Position numbers and translations under genes: made by a program. Source: Ruminococcaceae bacterium OttesenSCG-928-L11 (lineage in GTDB: Bacteria; Bacillota; Clostridia; Oscillospirales; Ruminococcaceae). From it: 33,013 nt of DNA. Shown piece by piece: positions 13,096 to 25,005 of this stretch (its first letter is position 1; every line of letters begins with the position of its first letter). The notes under the pieces were generated by a model, which was not told where the DNA came from, searched no databases, and saw nothing but the letters and a program-made list of their open reading frames with translations. Location of the stretch: NCBI GenBank assembly GCA_030265885.1, contig JAJDGX010000019.1, positions 1 through 33,013 on the forward strand. The letters run 5' to 3'.

Positions 13096-14235
13096 GTGGA
13101 AGCGGTTGTATCGGCGGTTCAAACCGACAGCTATGACGCGCATATACTGGAACAGGCGGTGCAGACCCATTTTTCCCGGTTGAATGTACAGGACGTAATT
13201 CGCCCGGGCATGCGGGTCTGTCTCAAGCCCAATTTGCTGGGCAAGCACGCCCCGGAGGCCGCCGTCACCACCCACTGCGAACTGGTCAAGCAGGTGGTTC
13301 GCCGGCTGGAGGCCATGGGGGTGAAGGACATTGTCATCGCCGACAGCCCCGGCGGGCCCTATACGCAAGGCGCCCTGGACGGCATTTACCGGGCGACCGG
13401 CATGCAGCGGGTGGAGGATGAGACGTCGGCCACCCTCAACCGGGACACCGGCCACGTGGCGCGAAAATCCGACGAAGCCGCCCTCTGCCGGGAGTTTTCC
13501 GTCATCAACCCCATTGCGGAAGCGGACGTCGTCATCAATCTGCCCAAGCTGAAAACCCACGGCATGGTGATGCTGTCCGCCGGGGTAAAAAACCTGCTGG
13601 GCTGTGTGCCGGGACTGCAAAAGCCGGAGCTTCATTTCCGCTTTCAGGACAAGGCGGATTTCTGCCGGATGCTGCTGGATCTTTCCTTGCTGGTAAAGCC
13701 GGTGCTGACCATTGTGGACGCGGTGGACTCCATGGAGGGCAACGGCCCCTCCGGTGGCAGCATTCTCCACACAGGCATGACCTTTGCCTCCCGGGATGTC
13801 TACGCCTTGGATCTGGCCCTGTGCGCCTTCACCGGAATACCCGCCGACCAGGTGTGGACAGTGCGCCACGCCATGGCCACCGGCCTGTGCCCGGACACCC
13901 CCAACGCCATTCGCTGGGCGGGGGATGCACCTCGGCCAGCCGCCTTTCAGATGCCGGACAGCCGCACGCTTGACTTCACCAGCCATGTCCCGGGGCCGCT
14001 GCGCAAATCGGCGGGCGCCATTATGGGCAGACTGTTTGAGGCCCGCCCGGTCATCGACCGGGGGAAGTGCATCGGCTGCGGAAAATGCGAGGAGAGCTGT
14101 GCGCCAAAGGCAGTGGTCATTCGGGAGCGCAAGGCCCGGCTGGACGCCTCGAAATGCATCAAATGCTATTGCTGCCATGAAATGTGCCCGGTACAGGCAG
14201 TTCGGATAAAACGCCCCTTTTTCCTGCGAAAGTAG
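13096..14235 (+). CDS. DUF362 protein with C-terminal 2x[4Fe-4S] ferredoxin domain
   Basis: GTG start; LKPNLLGKHAPEAAVTTHCELVKQVVRRLEAMGVKDIVIADSPGG, and CIGCGKCEESCAPKAVVI...CIKCYCCHEMCPVQAV. Confidence 0.9.
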   Translation: MEAVVSAVQTDSYDAHILEQAVQTHFSRLNVQDVIRPGMRVCLKPNLLGKHAPEAAVTTHCELVKQVVRRLEAMGVKDIVIADSPGGPYTQGALDGIYRATGMQRVEDETSATLNRDTGHVARKSDEAALCREFSVINPIAEADVVINLPKLKTHGMVMLSAGVKNLLGCVPGLQKPELHFRFQDKADFCRMLLDLSLLVKPVLTIVDAVDSMEGNGPSGGSILHTGMTFASRDVYALDLALCAFTGIPADQVWTVRHAMATGLCPDTPNAIRWAGDAPRPAAFQMPDSRTLDFTSHVPGPLRKSAGAIMGRLFEARPVIDRGKCIGCGKCEESCAPKAVVIRERKARLDASKCIKCYCCHEMCPVQAVRIKRPFFLRK

Positions 14236-16174: not shown

Positions 16175-16699
16175 ATGATGGCGTGCTGTAACGATGCGAA
16201 AGCATGGAGGTTGAAGGATCCTGCCATAGATTTGGCATTGCTGGATCCCGTTCTGGATACATATGCCGGTGTGGAGGGCAGTCTGATTACCATACTGCAA
16301 AAGGCACAGGGCTTGTATGGGTATCTGCCGGTGGATTTGCTGGCTTATATCGCCCTGAAAACCGGCGTAAAGCCGGCCAAGGTGCTGGGCGTGGCCACCT
16401 TTTACACCCAGTTCCGGCTGGAGCCTGTGGGCAAGCATCTGATTATGCTCTGCCAGGGGACGGCCTGCCATGTCAACGGCTCCGCCGCCATTGAGGAAGC
16501 GGTTCGGGATGAGCTGGGCGTGGAGGAAGGTGCCATCACCCCCGACGGCCTGTTTACCTATAACAATGTGGCGTGCCTGGGCTGCTGCAGCCTCTCGCCG
16601 GTAATGATGATAGGCGAGGAGACCTACGGCACCCTGACACCGGATAAGGCCAGAACAATATTGCGCCAAATTCGCGAAAAGGAGGCCGCCAACGCATGA
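16175..16699 (+). CDS. NuoE/HydA-like [2Fe-2S] thioredoxin-fold subunit (StnC-like)
   Basis: CQGTACHVNGSAAIEEAVRDELGV...NNVACLGCCSLSPVMMIGEETYGTLTPDKA (Cx4C ... Cx3C). Confidence 0.9.
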   Translation: MMACCNDAKAWRLKDPAIDLALLDPVLDTYAGVEGSLITILQKAQGLYGYLPVDLLAYIALKTGVKPAKVLGVATFYTQFRLEPVGKHLIMLCQGTACHVNGSAAIEEAVRDELGVEEGAITPDGLFTYNNVACLGCCSLSPVMMIGEETYGTLTPDKARTILRQIREKEAANA

Positions 16700-18474
16700 A
16701 ACAGAACAACGGAACACGGGTGATTGTCGGAAAGGGTAGCTGCGGAATCGCGGCGGGCGCCAACCGAATTTCCACCCTTCTGGAGAAAGGCATCCGGGAC
16801 GCCGGCATCGACTGCTCGGTGGTGACAACCGGCTGCATCGGCATGTGCTATCTGGAGCCCGTTGTGGATGTGCTGCTGCCGGACGGCAGCAAGGAGACCT
16901 ACGTGCGGGTGGATGCCGATGGCGCTGGCGAAATCCTCAAGTCCATCCGGGGCGAGGCAAACAATGCGGAGCAGTACAAAATCCCCCGGGAGGACGCCGA
17001 AAACCTCCACAAGCAGACCCGGGTAGCCCTGGCCAACTGCGGCGTCATCGACCCGGAGAGCATCGACGAATACATAGCCAAGGACGGCTACAAAACCGTC
17101 ACGCAGACAATGAAAACCCATAGCCCGGAGGATATCATCGCCATTATTAAGGAGTCCGGCCTGGCGGGACGGGGCGGCGCAGGCTTCCCCACCTGGTTCA
17201 AGTGGCAGGCCGCCCGCAACTCCCCCTACCCGAAGGACGGCATCAAATATGTCATCTGCAACGCCGATGAGGGCGACCCCGGCGCGTTTATGGACAGAGC
17301 CGTCCTGGAGGGCGACCCCCACGCGCTGATTGAGGGCATGCTCATGGCCGCCTACGCCATCGGTGCCCGGGAAGGCGTCGTCTATGTGCGGGCCGAGTAC
17401 CCGCTGGCGATTCACCGGCTGGAAAACGCCATCGCCCAGGCCGAGGAGCGTGGCTTTTTGGGCGACGACATTCAGGGAACAGGCTTCGGCTTCCGGCTCC
17501 GCATCAAGGCGGGCGCGGGCGCCTTTGTGTGCGGCGAGGAAACCGCCCTCATCGCGTCGCTGGAAGGGGAGCGGGGCATGCCTCGGCTCAAGCCGCCCTT
17601 CCCGGCCCAGAAGGGCCTCTGGCAAAAACCCAGCAACATCAATAATGTAGAAACCTACGCCAACGTGCCGTGGATCATCCGCAACGGCGGGCAGGCGTTT
17701 GCCGCCATGGGCACCGAAAACTCCAAGGGCACCAAGGTGTTCGCCCTGACCGGCAAAATCAAAAAGGGCGGTCTGGTGGAGATCCCCATGGGCAACTCCA
17801 TCCGGGACGTCATCTACGGCGTCGGCGGCGGCATCAAGGAGGACAAGGCCTTCAAGGCGGTGCAGATGGGCGGCCCCTCCGGCGGCTGCATCCCGGCGGA
17901 GCTCATCGACACCCTCATCGACTACCGAACCCTGGCAGCCACCGGAGCCATCATGGGCAGCGGCGGCATGGTCGTCATGGATGAAACCACCTGCATGGTA
18001 GATATGGCCCGCTTTTTCCTGGATTTCACCTGCAAGGAAAGCTGCGGAAAATGCGTTCACTGCCGCATTGGCACCAAGCGGATGCTGGAAATTCTGACCC
18101 GCATCACCGAAGGGGAGGGCCGGGACGGCGACATCGAGCTGCTGTCCGATCTGGCTGTGCAAATCAAGGACGGCTCCCTGTGCGGACTGGGCCAAACAGC
18201 CCCCAACCCTGTCCTGACCACCATCAAATACTTCCGCAACGAATACGAGGATCACATCTATCACAAAAAGTGCACGGCCAAACAGTGCAAGCCCCTTCTG
18301 CGCTATGCCATCGACAAGGACGCCTGCACAGGCTGCACTCTCTGCTCCCGCAAATGCCCGGTGGAGGCCATCTCCGGCCAGGTGAAGCAGCCCCACACCA
18401 TCGACCCCGAGGTCTGCATCAAATGTGGAAAATGCGCAGAGGTATGCCGATTCAAGGCAGTTGTAATAGATTAA
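16696..18474 (+). CDS. NuoF/HydB-like NADH-binding flavoprotein subunit (StnB-like)
   Basis: N-terminal Trx-like [2Fe-2S] domain, SGLAGRGGAGFPTWFKW, CNADEGDPGAFMDRAVLEGDPH, ESCGKCVHCRIGTKRM, C-terminal CTGCTLCSRKCPVEAI...CIKCGKCAEVCRFKAV; ATGA overlap with the preceding gene. Confidence 0.95.
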   Translation: MKQNNGTRVIVGKGSCGIAAGANRISTLLEKGIRDAGIDCSVVTTGCIGMCYLEPVVDVLLPDGSKETYVRVDADGAGEILKSIRGEANNAEQYKIPREDAENLHKQTRVALANCGVIDPESIDEYIAKDGYKTVTQTMKTHSPEDIIAIIKESGLAGRGGAGFPTWFKWQAARNSPYPKDGIKYVICNADEGDPGAFMDRAVLEGDPHALIEGMLMAAYAIGAREGVVYVRAEYPLAIHRLENAIAQAEERGFLGDDIQGTGFGFRLRIKAGAGAFVCGEETALIASLEGERGMPRLKPPFPAQKGLWQKPSNINNVETYANVPWIIRNGGQAFAAMGTENSKGTKVFALTGKIKKGGLVEIPMGNSIRDVIYGVGGGIKEDKAFKAVQMGGPSGGCIPAELIDTLIDYRTLAATGAIMGSGGMVVMDETTCMVDMARFFLDFTCKESCGKCVHCRIGTKRMLEILTRITEGEGRDGDIELLSDLAVQIKDGSLCGLGQTAPNPVLTTIKYFRNEYEDHIYHKKCTAKQCKPLLRYAIDKDACTGCTLCSRKCPVEAISGQVKQPHTIDPEVCIKCGKCAEVCRFKAVVID

Positions 18475-18539
18475 ACGTATGACGCGGCTGTGAAATATAG
18501 CTTGCCAAGCGTCACGCTGGTGAAATGGAGAATCGAGTG

Positions 18540-21500
18540 ATGAGTGAAATTCGGCTGAATATAAACGGGCGGGAAGTGAAGGGCCAGGACGGCCAGACTG
18601 TCCTGGAGATCGCCCGCCACAACGGGATTGACATCCCCACCCTCTGTCACGACGACCGGGTGAAAATGTACGGCTCCTGCGGCATCTGCACCGTGGAAAT
18701 GGAGGGCAACCCCCGGCTGCTTCGTTCCTGCTCCACCATGGCTGCCGACGGCATGGTGATCCACACCGACACAGAGCGGGTGCGGAAATCCCGCAAAACC
18801 GCCCTGGAGCTGCTGCTGTCCGACCATACCGGCGACTGCCGCCCCCCCTGTGTGCTGGCCTGCCCCGCCCAGACAGACTGTCAGGGCTACGTGGGCCTTA
18901 TCGCCAACGGCGAATACAGGGAAGCCCTGAAGCTGGTGAAGGATAAAATCCCGCTGCCCGGCTCCATTGGCCGGGTCTGCCCCCACCCCTGCGAGGAGGC
19001 GTGCCGCCGCCAGATGGTGGAGGAGCCCATCAGCATCGCGGCCCTCAAGCAGTTTGTCGCCGACAAGGACATGGCCGACGGCGAACTGTACACAGCGCCT
19101 GTTGCGGCGGATACCGGCAAACAGGTGGCTGTCATCGGCGGCGGCCCCGGCGGCTTGACGGCTGCCTACTTCCTGCGGATGGAGGGCCACGCCGTCACCG
19201 TATACGACGCCATGCCCCAAATGGGCGGCATGCTTCAGTACGGCATCCCCGAATACCGCCTGCCCAAGCAGTACCTGCAGGCGGAGATCGACGCCATCCG
19301 GCAGACCGGCGTGGAGTTCCGCAACGGCGTAAAAATCGGCCGGGATCTGACACTGGAGTATTTGCAGGAAACCTATGACGCCGTCATCGTCGCCGTAGGT
19401 GCCTGGACCAGCACCGGCCTGCGCTGCCCCGGCGAGCAGCTTCAAGGGGTGCTGGGCGGCATCGACTTCCTGCGGGAGGTCTCTTTGGGCATGCCGGTGT
19501 ACGCCGGCAAACGGGTGGCCGTCGTCGGCGGCGGCAACACCGCCATGGACGCCTGTCGCACAGCGGTGCGCCTGGGTGCCGAACAGGTGTACAACATCTA
19601 CCGCCGCACCAAAAACGAGATGCCCGCCGAGGACATCGAGATTCAGGAGGCGGAAGAGGAAGGCGTCATCTTCAAGAATCTGACCAACCCCATCGAGGTG
19701 CTGGGAACAGACGGCAAGGTCACCGGCGTCCGCCTGCAAATCATGGAGCTGGGCGAGCCGGATGCCTCCGGACGCCGGGCACCTGTGGCTGTGGAGGGCA
19801 AGGAGGAGACCATCGAGGTCGACACTGTCATCGTGGCCATCGGCCAAAAGCTGAACGCGGCAGGGCTGGAGGGCATCCAGCTGACCAAATGGGGCACGAT
19901 TTCCGCCGATGAAGCCAGCTTCCGCACCAGCCTGGAGGGCGTATTCGCCATCGGCGACGCCACCAACAAGGGCGCCGACATTGCCATCTCCGCCATCGGC
20001 GAGGCCAAAAAGGCGGCCGCCGTGGTCGACCGGTACCTGTACGGGGAGGACTGCCCCTACGAGGCCCTCTATCTTGTCACCAGCGACCCGGAGGCTGAGC
20101 GGTTCACCAAATACGAAAAGGCTCCCCGGGCCAAAATGCCCCACAAATCCCCTGCACAGCGGCGGGATAATTTCCTGGAAATCAATGAGGGCCTCACAGA
20201 CGAGCAGGCCTGCAAGGAAGCTAACCGCTGCCTGGAATGCGGCTGCCACGACTATTTTGAGTGCAAGCTCATCGACTACGCCAACCGGTATAAGGTGGAG
20301 CCCCAAAAGCTGGCGGGCGAGGTGCACCACCGGACGATTGGGCAGGATCACCCCTACATCACCCGCAACCCGGACAAATGCATCCTCTGCGGGCTGTGCG
20401 TGCGCATCTGCGACGAGGTGGTGGGAGCCACCGCCCTGGGCCTGGCCGACAGAGGCTTCGACGCCGTTGTCAAGCCGGCGCTGGATATGCGCCTGCAGGA
20501 AACCGACTGCGTCTCCTGCGGCCAGTGCGTCAATGTTTGCCCCACCGGCGCCCTTACCGAGACTATGATGACCGCCAAGCAGGTGCCCACCCGGGAATGC
20601 GACACCGAAACCACCTGCTCCTTCTGCAGCGTCGGCTGCCGGACAAAGCTGACCCACACCGGCGATTTGCTGCTTCGCTCTCTTCCCGTCGCCCAGGACA
20701 ACCGGGACGCCCTTCTCTGCATGAAGGGCCGGTTCGGCTTTGGGGAGATAGCAAAGATAGACCGTCTGCACAAGCCCCTCATCCGCCGGGATGGTACCTT
20801 GGACGAGGCCTCCTTCGCGGATGCATACATCTACACCGGCAAAAAGCTCCAATCCATCCAGACCCGCTGCGGCACAGACAGCATCGCCGTGGCAATCTCC
20901 GACCGCTACACCAACGAAGAGGCGTTCCTCCTTCGGGAATACGCCCACAAGACCCTCCACACCGGCCGCGTCTATTCCTTCAACAAGACCACCGGCGGCT
21001 TGGGAGAGGTGCTGGGCAAGGATGCCTCCACGGCGGATTTTGAGGAGCTGGAAAACACCTCCCTCATCCTGATTGTCCAAAGCGACATTCAAAAGCCGCA
21101 CATGGTTGCGGGGCTGCGGATTCGCAAGGCGGCGGAGCGGGGAGCCACGATCGTCGCGGTCAACAGCTTTGCCAGTGCCGTCGACGAGATAGCGGCGATA
21201 AAGGCGGATCCCGGCAAGGATCTCGGCTTCCTCAAGGAACTGCTAAAGGCTGTCATGGAGCAGTCCGACGCCGGAAAAGCCGTGGACGGCTACGCCGAGT
21301 TGGCCGCCTCTCTCGCGTCTGTCCAGCCCGGTGACATGGCCAAGACCATCGCCGGGGAATACGTGAACGCCCAAAAGGCTGTCATCGTGTTCGAGCAGAG
21401 CAAGCTGACCGTCGACGCCCAACGGCTGCTGGGGGACATTGCCCTCTGCGGCGGCCACGCCTTTGGTGCCCGCAACGGCGTCATCCAGCTGAAACCCAAC

Positions 21501-22013
21501 GCCAACTCCCAGGGCCTCAGCGATTTGGACATCGGAGATGGGGCGGAGCTGAGAGCCGCCATCGCAGACGGCAGCGTCAAGGGCCTCATCATCTTCGGTG
21601 AGGATGTGCCGGATCTGGATGTGTCCGGCTTGGAGTTCCTGGCCGTGCAGGATTTGCAGGTGACCCAGACTGCGGCAAAGGCCGATGCGGTATTCCCCGG
21701 CCAAAGCTTTGCCGAGGTAAACGGCACCTTCACCAACGCGGTGGGGACCGTGCAGCAGGTGACCCAGGCAGTTCCGTCGCAGATGGAGCAGTCCAACTTC
21801 GACATTGTCATGGGGCTGGATGCAGTTGCCGGCAGCCGCCTGCGGTTCCGCAGCATGGAGGATGTCGCAGTCGCCATGCACCACCGGGAGCAGCCCCAGA
21901 CCACTGCTGCCAAACTGGTTGCCGCCACAGGCGACCAGCTGAGCCGTGCCGCCGCCAACACCAACGCCCTCTACAATTCCCTGATGGCCTTTGCCATGGA
22001 AAGAGGCCTGTAA
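18540..22013 (+). CDS. fusion of NuoG-type [2Fe-2S] ferredoxin, GltD/NfnB-like FAD/NAD(P) oxidoreductase, 2x[4Fe-4S], and truncated molybdopterin-oxidoreductase-like domain (StnA-like)
   Basis: CHDDRVKMYGSCGICTVEMEGNPRLLRSC; DCRPPCVLACPAQTDCQGYV...VCPHPCEEACRR; GGGPGGLTAAYFLRMEGHAVTVYDAMPQMGGMLQYGIPEYRLPK; VVGGGNTAMDACRTAVRLGAEQVYNIYRR; CILCGLCVRICDE...CVSCGQCVNVCPTGAL; CSFCSVGC. ATG 18540 has a better-spaced ggag than 18525. Confidence 0.93.
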   Translation: MSEIRLNINGREVKGQDGQTVLEIARHNGIDIPTLCHDDRVKMYGSCGICTVEMEGNPRLLRSCSTMAADGMVIHTDTERVRKSRKTALELLLSDHTGDCRPPCVLACPAQTDCQGYVGLIANGEYREALKLVKDKIPLPGSIGRVCPHPCEEACRRQMVEEPISIAALKQFVADKDMADGELYTAPVAADTGKQVAVIGGGPGGLTAAYFLRMEGHAVTVYDAMPQMGGMLQYGIPEYRLPKQYLQAEIDAIRQTGVEFRNGVKIGRDLTLEYLQETYDAVIVAVGAWTSTGLRCPGEQLQGVLGGIDFLREVSLGMPVYAGKRVAVVGGGNTAMDACRTAVRLGAEQVYNIYRRTKNEMPAEDIEIQEAEEEGVIFKNLTNPIEVLGTDGKVTGVRLQIMELGEPDASGRRAPVAVEGKEETIEVDTVIVAIGQKLNAAGLEGIQLTKWGTISADEASFRTSLEGVFAIGDATNKGADIAISAIGEAKKAAAVVDRYLYGEDCPYEALYLVTSDPEAERFTKYEKAPRAKMPHKSPAQRRDNFLEINEGLTDEQACKEANRCLECGCHDYFECKLIDYANRYKVEPQKLAGEVHHRTIGQDHPYITRNPDKCILCGLCVRICDEVVGATALGLADRGFDAVVKPALDMRLQETDCVSCGQCVNVCPTGALTETMMTAKQVPTRECDTETTCSFCSVGCRTKLTHTGDLLLRSLPVAQDNRDALLCMKGRFGFGEIAKIDRLHKPLIRRDGTLDEASFADAYIYTGKKLQSIQTRCGTDSIAVAISDRYTNEEAFLLREYAHKTLHTGRVYSFNKTTGGLGEVLGKDASTADFEELENTSLILIVQSDIQKPHMVAGLRIRKAAERGATIVAVNSFASAVDEIAAIKADPGKDLGFLKELLKAVMEQSDAGKAVDGYAELAASLASVQPGDMAKTIAGEYVNAQKAVIVFEQSKLTVDAQRLLGDIALCGGHAFGARNGVIQLKPNANSQGLSDLDIGDGAELRAAIADGSVKGLIIFGEDVPDLDVSGLEFLAVQDLQVTQTAAKADAVFPGQSFAEVNGTFTNAVGTVQQVTQAVPSQMEQSNFDIVMGLDAVAGSRLRFRSMEDVAVAMHHREQPQTTAAKLVAATGDQLSRAAANTNALYNSLMAFAMERGL

Positions 22014-22030
22014 TCACATAGCACAGAAAA

Positions 22031-22066
22031 AGAACTGCCTTCCCCTTTACCGGAGAAGGCAGTTCT
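22031..22066. terminator. bidirectional terminator between convergent stnA-like and trx genes
   Basis: AGAACTGCCTTC-ccctttaccgga-GAAGGCAGTTCT (12-bp perfect stem), A-rich on the left and T-rich on the right flank. Confidence 0.8.
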
Positions 22067-22094: not shown

Positions 22095-22406
22095 TCAGCA
22101 GTATTTGTCGACTGCTTCGACTACCTCGGCTTTTTTGCGCACGCCGACCAGCCGCTCCACTTCCTTGCCCCCCTTGAAAATGACCAGGGTGGGGATGCTG
22201 GATACGCCGTACTCAATGGCCAAATCCCGCTCCTCATCGATATTGACCTTCCCAAAGTTGGCCTTGCCGTCCATTTCGCCGGCAATTTCCTCTACAACAG
22301 GGGCGAATACCTGGCAGGGCATGCACCAGGTCGCCCAAAAATCCACCACAGTGGGCACATCCTGCCCGATGGTCTCCAGAAACGCGCTTTTGTTCAGTTC
22401 CGTCAT
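22095..22406 (-). CDS. thioredoxin with WCMPC active site
   Basis: TVVDFWATWCMPCQVFAPVVEEIAGEM...VSSIPTLVIFKGGKEVERLVGV. Confidence 0.93.
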   Translation of the reverse strand: MTELNKSAFLETIGQDVPTVVDFWATWCMPCQVFAPVVEEIAGEMDGKANFGKVNIDEERDLAIEYGVSSIPTLVIFKGGKEVERLVGVRKKAEVVEAVDKYC

Positions 22407-22448: not shown

Positions 22449-23342
22449 TTACTCTGCGTGGGTGTGCTTTTGGATATCGATATATGCCGCCGCGTTGAGT
22501 GCGGCAGTCTGGCCCTGTCCCGCCGCCCGCATGTACTGGTGGGGCTTGCCGGTGCAGTCGCCGGCGGCGTAACAGCCGGGCAGATTGGTCTGCATGGCCG
22601 CGTCCACCTTGATGAACCCGTTTTCCGTCTCCAGCCCCGGCACCAGAGAGGCGGGGGCAATGGTCTCCCGCAGCAAAAATACGCCGTCAACCGCAAGGGT
22701 TCGATTGTTCAGGATCAGCTGCTCCACCTTTCCCGAGCCGGTGATTTCCACCGGGACATCGTCCACCACCTCCACACGGCTGTCGAGAGGGCGGGTAAAT
22801 GCCTTGCCGGGGACAAAATACACCTTGACCGCAACATCGCAGACAAAGTTGGCCTCCTCCACCGATTCGTCGGTATAGCCGACAATGGCTACGGTGCGAT
22901 CCCGGTACAGCGGCGCGTCGCAGGTGGCGCAATAGCCGACGCCTCGTCCCAGAAACTCCGCCTCACCGGGCAGATCCTTGCTGTTAAAGACCCCGGGGCA
23001 CAGAATGACCGTGGTGGCCTCCAGCGTGCGGTGTGCAGTGGCAAGGGAGAAATACTCCCCCATGGGATACACAGTGGTAACCTGCTCCGGCACAATTTCT
23101 ATCGCCATTTGCTCCAAATGCTCCCGAAAGCGGGCGGCGAGATCCCCGCCGGAAATTCCCGGCAGCCCCAGATAATTGTTGATCCGAGGTGCCAATGTAA
23201 TTTTGTTGCTCAAATCCGCCGCCCCAAACAGGAGGAAATCCTTCTGGCGGATTTTCAGATTCAGGGCGGCTTCCAGCCCGGCGGGGCCGCTTCCGATGAT
23301 CACAGAATCCAGTCTGGCCGTAGTATCAGCTCCTTGCTCCAA
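22449..23342 (-). CDS. thioredoxin-reductase-like FAD flavoprotein lacking NADPH-binding motifs (candidate ferredoxin-dependent FFTR)
   Basis: DSVIIGSGPAGLEAALNL, GVGYCATCDAPLYRDRTVAIVGYTDESVEEANFV, LPGCYAAGDCTGKPHQYMRAAGQGQTAALNAAAYI; no GxGxxA or HRRxxxR in the second nucleotide-binding region. Confidence 0.88.
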   Translation of the reverse strand: MEQGADTTARLDSVIIGSGPAGLEAALNLKIRQKDFLLFGAADLSNKITLAPRINNYLGLPGISGGDLAARFREHLEQMAIEIVPEQVTTVYPMGEYFSLATAHRTLEATTVILCPGVFNSKDLPGEAEFLGRGVGYCATCDAPLYRDRTVAIVGYTDESVEEANFVCDVAVKVYFVPGKAFTRPLDSRVEVVDDVPVEITGSGKVEQLILNNRTLAVDGVFLLRETIAPASLVPGLETENGFIKVDAAMQTNLPGCYAAGDCTGKPHQYMRAAGQGQTAALNAAAYIDIQKHTHAE

Positions 23343-23613: not shown

Positions 23614-25005
23614 GTGAAACGAAGCGGTCTCAGACCAAACCGAACAAGATGTATGGCAATGCTTGCGGTATTGACGATTCTAATCAGCGTATTGTTTCCC
23701 GGCTTTCAGGCGGACGCTGCGACAATAAAAATCAAAACTGGTAAAACCTCATATACGGCGAAAAACGCCATGCTGGGCATCGACGTGTCCCGCTGGCAGG
23801 GCAGCATCAACTGGAAAAAGGTTGCGGCAACGGATGTGCAGTTTGTGTTTGCCCGGGCATCCTGCGGCACCGACACCGATGCCTATTTTGTTCAGAACGC
23901 CCAGGGCGCCTACGATAACAAGCTTCACATCGGCGCGTACCACTACGCCATGTTCAAGGACAGCGCCTCTGTAAAAAAAGAAGCCGCCGTCTTTCTCAAG
24001 CAGCTCAAAAAAGTCAAGCTGACCTACCCGGTGGTACTGGATATCGAAAATCACTACGGCCTCAGCAAATCCAAGCTGACAACGCTGTCCCTGCAGTTTA
24101 TGAAGATACTGGAGGACGCGGGCTACACCGTCATGATCTATACATACCAAAACTTCTTTACCGGCCGGCTGAACCTCTCCAAGCTGGAGGGCTACGACCG
24201 GTGGGCGGCCAATTACTCGGACAAGCCAACCGGCGTCAATTACGCCATCTGGCAGTTTTCCAGCCGGGGCAAGGTCAACGGAATCAACGGCAACGTGGAT
24301 TTGAACGTGGCGTTGAAAAACGTCGCCACCAAGAAAATTGCCGGCAACACCAAAACCTCCAAGGACAAGACGATTTCCGTGAGCGTCTCCACAATGTCCA
24401 CCTCCGGCAGTTCCTCCTCCGGCACCACCAAAACCAACACAAACAAGACCAACACCACCAATACCACCAAGACAAATACCTCAACGAACACCACCAAGAC
24501 CAACACATCGTCGTCCTCGTCCACCGCCGCGCCCAAGCCATCGACGAGCACGCCGTCCTCCCCAAAGCCCACCGAGCCAAAGACAGACTCCGGCTCCGCC
24601 ATATCGGGCACCGAGCGAACCGCCTTCCAATTCCTCAACGAATACTACGGCTTCGATTTCCATCCCGACGCCCCGGTGGACGTTGACGAAATCGACATGG
24701 CCCTGTTCAAGGCGTTCCAAATGGAACTGAACAAGCAGTTTGGCACCAAGCTGGAAGTCAACGGCTACCTGGGCGATACGGAGCTGACCGAGCTTTCCAC
24801 CATGAAATTTACCCGTGACAAAACGAAGGGACGGGTCACCACCCTGATTCAAATCCGGCTCTTCTACATGGACTACCTCAGCGAATTGACCGGCGTGTAC
24901 GACAACAAGATGATCGAGGCGATTCAGGATTTGCAGATTGCCTGCAACCTGGAGCCCAGCGGCAGCATGACCAAGGATACCTGGATGGAGATTCTGGCAT
25001 TGTAA
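23614..25005 (+). CDS. secreted GH25 lysozyme-like muramidase with T/N/S-rich linker and C-terminal peptidoglycan-binding-like domain
   Basis: GTG start after aggagggg; signal peptide; LGIDVSRWQGSINWKKVAATDVQFVFARASCGT, YPVVLDIENHYG, YDRWAANYSDKPTGVNYAIWQFSSRGKVNGINGNVDLNVA. Confidence 0.9.
   Translation: MKRSGLRPNRTRCMAMLAVLTILISVLFPGFQADAATIKIKTGKTSYTAKNAMLGIDVSRWQGSINWKKVAATDVQFVFARASCGTDTDAYFVQNAQGAYDNKLHIGAYHYAMFKDSASVKKEAAVFLKQLKKVKLTYPVVLDIENHYGLSKSKLTTLSLQFMKILEDAGYTVMIYTYQNFFTGRLNLSKLEGYDRWAANYSDKPTGVNYAIWQFSSRGKVNGINGNVDLNVALKNVATKKIAGNTKTSKDKTISVSVSTMSTSGSSSSGTTKTNTNKTNTTNTTKTNTSTNTTKTNTSSSSSTAAPKPSTSTPSSPKPTEPKTDSGSAISGTERTAFQFLNEYYGFDFHPDAPVDVDEIDMALFKAFQMELNKQFGTKLEVNGYLGDTELTELSTMKFTRDKTKGRVTTLIQIRLFYMDYLSELTGVYDNKMIEAIQDLQIACNLEPSGSMTKDTWMEILAL
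24415..24530 (+). repeat. imperfect coding repeats encoding TKTNT(S/N)-type linker
   Basis: Translates to TKTNTNKTNTTNTTKTNTSTNTTKTNTSSSSS; repeated accaccaagac/aacac units. Confidence 0.6.

Follow-up and report, generated by a model that had tools for sequence, protein, structure and literature searches.

Ferredoxin-flavin thioredoxin reductases (FFTRs) have already been published, including one in the trxA1-trxB1 operon of Clostridioides difficile (PMC10880999), and the characterised members of the family use ferredoxin as their electron donor (PMC8469568, PMC12796991). They belong to the same superfamily as the NADPH thioredoxin reductases described by the TIGR01292 model, and share with them the FAD domain and a CxxC redox pair. 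In Clostridium acetobutylicum, the FFTR (6GNA/6GNB) and FFTR2 (6GNC, or CaFFTR2; PMC8469568) combine a CATCDA redox centre with a VGY..E..EEAN-type replacement of the NADPH site, an open fold and a thioredoxin partner. In C. difficile, the TrxB1/TrxA1 operon and the TrxB4/TrxA2 pair display the same motif loss and the two-gene arrangement of trxA with an FFTR, and strain 630 keeps two NADPH enzymes besides (PMC10880999). The FFTR of Gloeobacter violaceus (5J60, 6XTF) is likewise a ferredoxin-dependent enzyme with an open fold, and in the cyanobacterial subtype a tryptophan of the C-terminal tail stacks on the FAD of the other subunit (PMC12796991).

The gene analysed here lies on a contig of Ruminococcaceae bacterium OttesenSCG-928-L11, in a stretch of 33,013 nucleotides that is referred to as the window, and it shares the redox centre and the replaced NADPH site of the C. 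acetobutylicum enzymes and is predicted to have their open fold. Family match, phylogeny, loss of the NADPH motifs and predicted fold agree with each other, and we therefore assign it with high confidence (probability of about 0.92) to the clostridial-type FFTRs. The features of the locus are as follows.

16175-16699, forward strand: StnA/NuoE-like gene (NuoE-like, as StnA is)
16696-18474, forward strand: StnB/NuoF-like gene (best structures 8OH5/8OH9 and 9BOV)
18525-22013, forward strand: StnC-like gene, a GltD and NuoG-like fusion (best structures 8OH5/8OH9 and 9BOV)
22032-22065, no strand assigned: perfect 11-bp inverted repeat (GAACTGCCTTC...GAAGGCAGTTC) lying between the stop codons of StnC and trxA, terminator-like on either strand
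22095-22406, reverse strand: trxA, thioredoxin with a WCMPC active site (TIGR01068, 117 bits, cut-off 96.8)
22449-23342, reverse strand: FFTR gene (trxB-like, predicted pyridine-nucleotide-independent thioredoxin reductase, 297 aa), assigned from phmmer, clade, motif loss and model
23614-25005, forward strand: GH25 lysozyme-like protein (PF01183), divergent to the FFTR gene

The FFTR reading frame starts with a TTG at 23342 and runs for 297 codons to a stop at 22449-22451. The sole good Shine-Dalgarno-like sequence near this start, AAGGAG, falls a few codons past the annotated TTG, within the reading frame, which leaves the N-terminal residues slightly uncertain. The Pfam match of the protein is Pyr_redox_2, and its score against TIGR01292, the curated NADPH thioredoxin reductase model, falls well below the cut-off (189 against 343 bits). 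When the PDB was searched with phmmer, the top three distinct sequences were 6GNA/6GNB, 6GND and 6GNC (E 1e-100 to 1e-93), which the Foldseek table labels as C. acetobutylicum FFTRs (6GNA, 6GNC and 6GND), and the nearest NADPH enzyme followed at 1e-41. The match to 6GNA covers the full length of the protein, with an aligned identity of 56% to 6GNA and 52% to 6GNC.

The FAD motifs are intact and invariant in the alignments (GSGPAG at residues 17-22 and GD at 261-262), as is the redox pair C138-A-T-C141, which sits in the former NADPH domain. At the GxGxxA site, the alignment sets GYTDES against the GGGNTA of the NADPH enzymes, and at the HRRxxxR site the HRRDTLR of those enzymes is matched by PGKAF and then a gap that removes about nine residues. 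Both losses and the deletion fall exactly where they do in the C. acetobutylicum FFTRs (6GNA, 6GNC, 6GND). Among the matches listed, HRRxxxR occurs in none of the 69 rows of the FFTR clade and GxGxx[A/G] at the corresponding site in two, whereas the 28 remaining thioredoxin-reductase-like rows, which belong to neither of the two motif-poor clades, have them in 21 and 27 cases, respectively, which argues that the motif loss is not due to chance. The only GxGxxA-like string seen apart from the FAD motif, GQGQTA at residues 275-280, was considered as a shifted or missed NADPH site and rejected, as by its sequence it falls in a C-terminal helix of the FAD domain. The C-terminus of the window protein (...AAYIDIQKHTHAE) contains no tryptophan of the kind found in the tail of the cyanobacterial subtype, which sets it apart from the G. 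violaceus FFTR. The original prediction had described an open reading frame with an intact FAD domain and the redox pair YCATCDAP, a second nucleotide region reading VAIVGYTDESVEEANFVCDVAVKVYFVPGKAF in place of GxGxxA...HRRxxxR, and hence a candidate ferredoxin-dependent FFTR. The frame and both strings are present as described, and the family match, the tree, the loss of motifs and the modelled fold all support the proposed identity. The alignment with NADPH enzymes and FFTRs that had been suggested as a check groups the protein with the FFTRs and reveals no overlooked conserved NADPH site.

For the phylogeny, relatives were drawn from the order, the family, the genus and named GTDB genomes, the last of these being a sample from the matches listed and not a census. 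In the maximum-likelihood tree of 106 rows, again among the matches listed, the window protein and both C. acetobutylicum FFTRs fall into one clade of 69 rows (SH-aLRT 99), apart from the NADPH enzymes. Within this clade, the window protein nests with its congeners (8 rows, support 100), beside CaFFTR2 and Clostridium manihotivorum.

Two further groups of reductases were observed in the same material. A second clade (support 99; L021, L023, L024, L026, L029, L033, L038, L039 and L145) consists of thioredoxin-reductase-like proteins of about 283-307 aa with a YCAVCDA-type centre and TNG or TDG in place of HRRxxxR; a GxGxxA-like site is kept in seven of the nine, and trxA adjoins in two. In addition, five congener reductases of about 400-430 aa (L168-L171 and L173) lack HRRxxxR and carry a fused C-terminal thioredoxin-like domain, which itself seems to be without the usual CxxC.

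An AlphaFold2 model, built from the window protein together with 40 relatives (mean pLDDT 88), is predicted in the open form, with the CxxC far from the FAD. The model superposes on 6GNA with a TM-score of 0.91-0.95 at 1.4 A, a structure that has been public since 2018 and may be in the training data. Agreement with the G. violaceus FFTR, at 28% identity, is lower (TM 0.77-0.78 by query length, 3.8-4.0 A), and with the NADPH enzymes, at 25-34% identity, it drops to about 0.55 at 11-16 A, as is expected because the domain orientation differs. Since 6GNA and 6GNC have been public from December 2018, the open fold is taken as supporting, and maybe not independent, evidence.

By analogy with the characterised FFTRs, we infer that ferredoxin is the electron donor, that TrxA is the acceptor and that catalysis involves a domain swing. 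In the open form, the FAD would receive one electron at a time from reduced ferredoxin, in two rounds, and would be exposed to this donor since the counterpart of the NADPH-binding domain of ordinary reductases has lost that role. From the G. violaceus enzyme, the midpoint potential of the FAD would be expected at about -450 mV (PMC12796991). An inward rotation of the CATC-bearing domain would next let the cysteine pair accept both electrons as a dithiol, and after rotating back out the domain would reduce the disulfide of a thioredoxin, most likely that of the adjacent TrxA. A variant of this scheme, in which an enzyme of FFTR fold is served by another low-potential carrier, such as flavodoxin or the ferredoxin-like domain of some larger protein, instead of a small ferredoxin, could draw on the lack of any stand-alone ferredoxin match in this genome (76% complete). 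Four more complete congeners (G196, G340, G293 and G342) do encode a stand-alone small ferredoxin, however, and the characterised relatives use ferredoxin itself (PMC8469568, PMC12796991), which makes such a carrier very improbable.

The trxA gene lies directly downstream of the FFTR gene on the same strand, after a gap of 42 bp and with its own good ribosome-binding site (GGAAAGGATG), and from this arrangement the two are predicted to form a two-gene operon. The thioredoxin in the 6GND complex is among the PDB relatives of the window thioredoxin. Among the matches listed, a same-strand thioredoxin gene stands beside the FFTR gene in 28 of 67 family loci and is absent from the remaining 39; in five loci of the latter kind that were inspected with rough ORF picking, no consistent alternative partner was found. 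Each of the seven genomes of the genus that encode an FFTR has the thioredoxin gene next to it in the same orientation. The order of the genes differs between lineages, with trxA preceding the FFTR gene in the Clostridium, Tepidibacter and Alkalithermobacter loci, and following it, as in the window, in the other trxA-linked loci listed. The window thioredoxin also has WCMPC instead of WCGPC, a variant shared by L068 and by every one of the seven thioredoxins linked to an FFTR in the genus.

On the other side of trxA, and convergent to the FFTR gene, the operon at 16175-22013 on the forward strand is, as judged from its genes, a complete Stn-type electron-bifurcating transhydrogenase with StnABC architecture. 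Of the best-matching structures for StnB and StnC, 8OH5/8OH9 are of the Stn transhydrogenase and 9BOV is of a related enzyme. StnC K170 is reported to be strictly conserved (PMC10482914), and the equivalents of Lys170 and Cys114, with positions counted along the alignment, are kept in the window protein. The original prediction had placed the FFTR gene convergent to a ferredoxin/NAD(P)H-coupling operon; the operon is real, but trxA, which had gone unmentioned, sits between the two. It had also proposed that operon and reductase form a local redox module, a claim that the comparative data do not sustain. In one form of this idea, Stn would make reduced ferredoxin specifically for the FFTR, so that thioredoxin would in effect be fed by NADPH; the two units are indeed neighbours here and ferredoxin would be their common carrier. 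However, the terminator-like hairpin separates the convergent units, and Stn genes are missing from the flanks, <2 kb to 10 kb long, of every other FFTR locus examined, which leaves this genome as the only one among them with the adjacency. StnC-type proteins, full or partial, were found in three of 11 genus genomes, namely this one, G293, where the StnC-type protein and the FFTR are on different contigs, and G344, which has no FFTR match; a full-length StnC-type match is present in only one (G293) of the six other FFTR-bearing congeners. A physical and regulatory pairing in this lineage of Stn, as a maker of reduced ferredoxin from NADPH, with the FFTR, as a split NADPH-to-thioredoxin route that bypasses any NADPH thioredoxin reductase, is very improbable, as is a dedicated supply of ferredoxin. 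With the adjacency unique to this locus, StnC-type proteins rare in the genus and a hairpin between the units, the proximity is best read as incidental, though both systems would use one ferredoxin pool. The conserved functional neighbour of the FFTR is the adjacent thioredoxin gene and not the Stn operon.

Likewise very improbable is the reading of the protein as a thioredoxin reductase that still uses NAD(P)H through a diverged nucleotide site, which would fit the overall superfamily assignment of the Pfam and NCBIfam matches but not the loss of both nucleotide motifs with the deletion, as in characterised FFTRs, nor the sub-threshold TIGR01292 score.

Other neighbours include the GH25 lysozyme-like gene, kept beside the FFTR gene in four congeners (G196, G342, G343 and G346), and, at 13096-14235 of the window, a DUF362 protein with two C-terminal Fer4 motifs.

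Thioredoxin reductases were also surveyed across the genome and the genus. This genome, at 76% completeness, yielded no further thioredoxin reductase, canonical NADPH enzymes included, which differs from the situation in C. difficile 630. A 96-bit match on contig C241 (L002) was rejected as a second thioredoxin reductase, being a different FAD oxidoreductase without a CxxC; its neighbour is presumably a glycerol-3-phosphate oxidase/dehydrogenase-type gene. FFTRs are present in six of the ten congeners besides this genome. In G340, which is 98% complete, the FFTR is the sole TrxB-like match above 100 bits, and some of the other FFTR-bearing congeners also have an AhpF-like or thioredoxin-fused reductase. 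The iron-sulfur FTR subunit (PF02943) is absent from all 11 genus genomes.

To conclude, the window gene adds a further clostridial genus to the range of the published FFTR family, and it illustrates that the annotation of such genes as NADPH-dependent thioredoxin reductases can be wrong. Furthermore, the FFTR appears to be the sole TrxB-like protein in some congeners, which suggests that in these organisms the family may be part of the core thiol-repair machinery rather than an extra.
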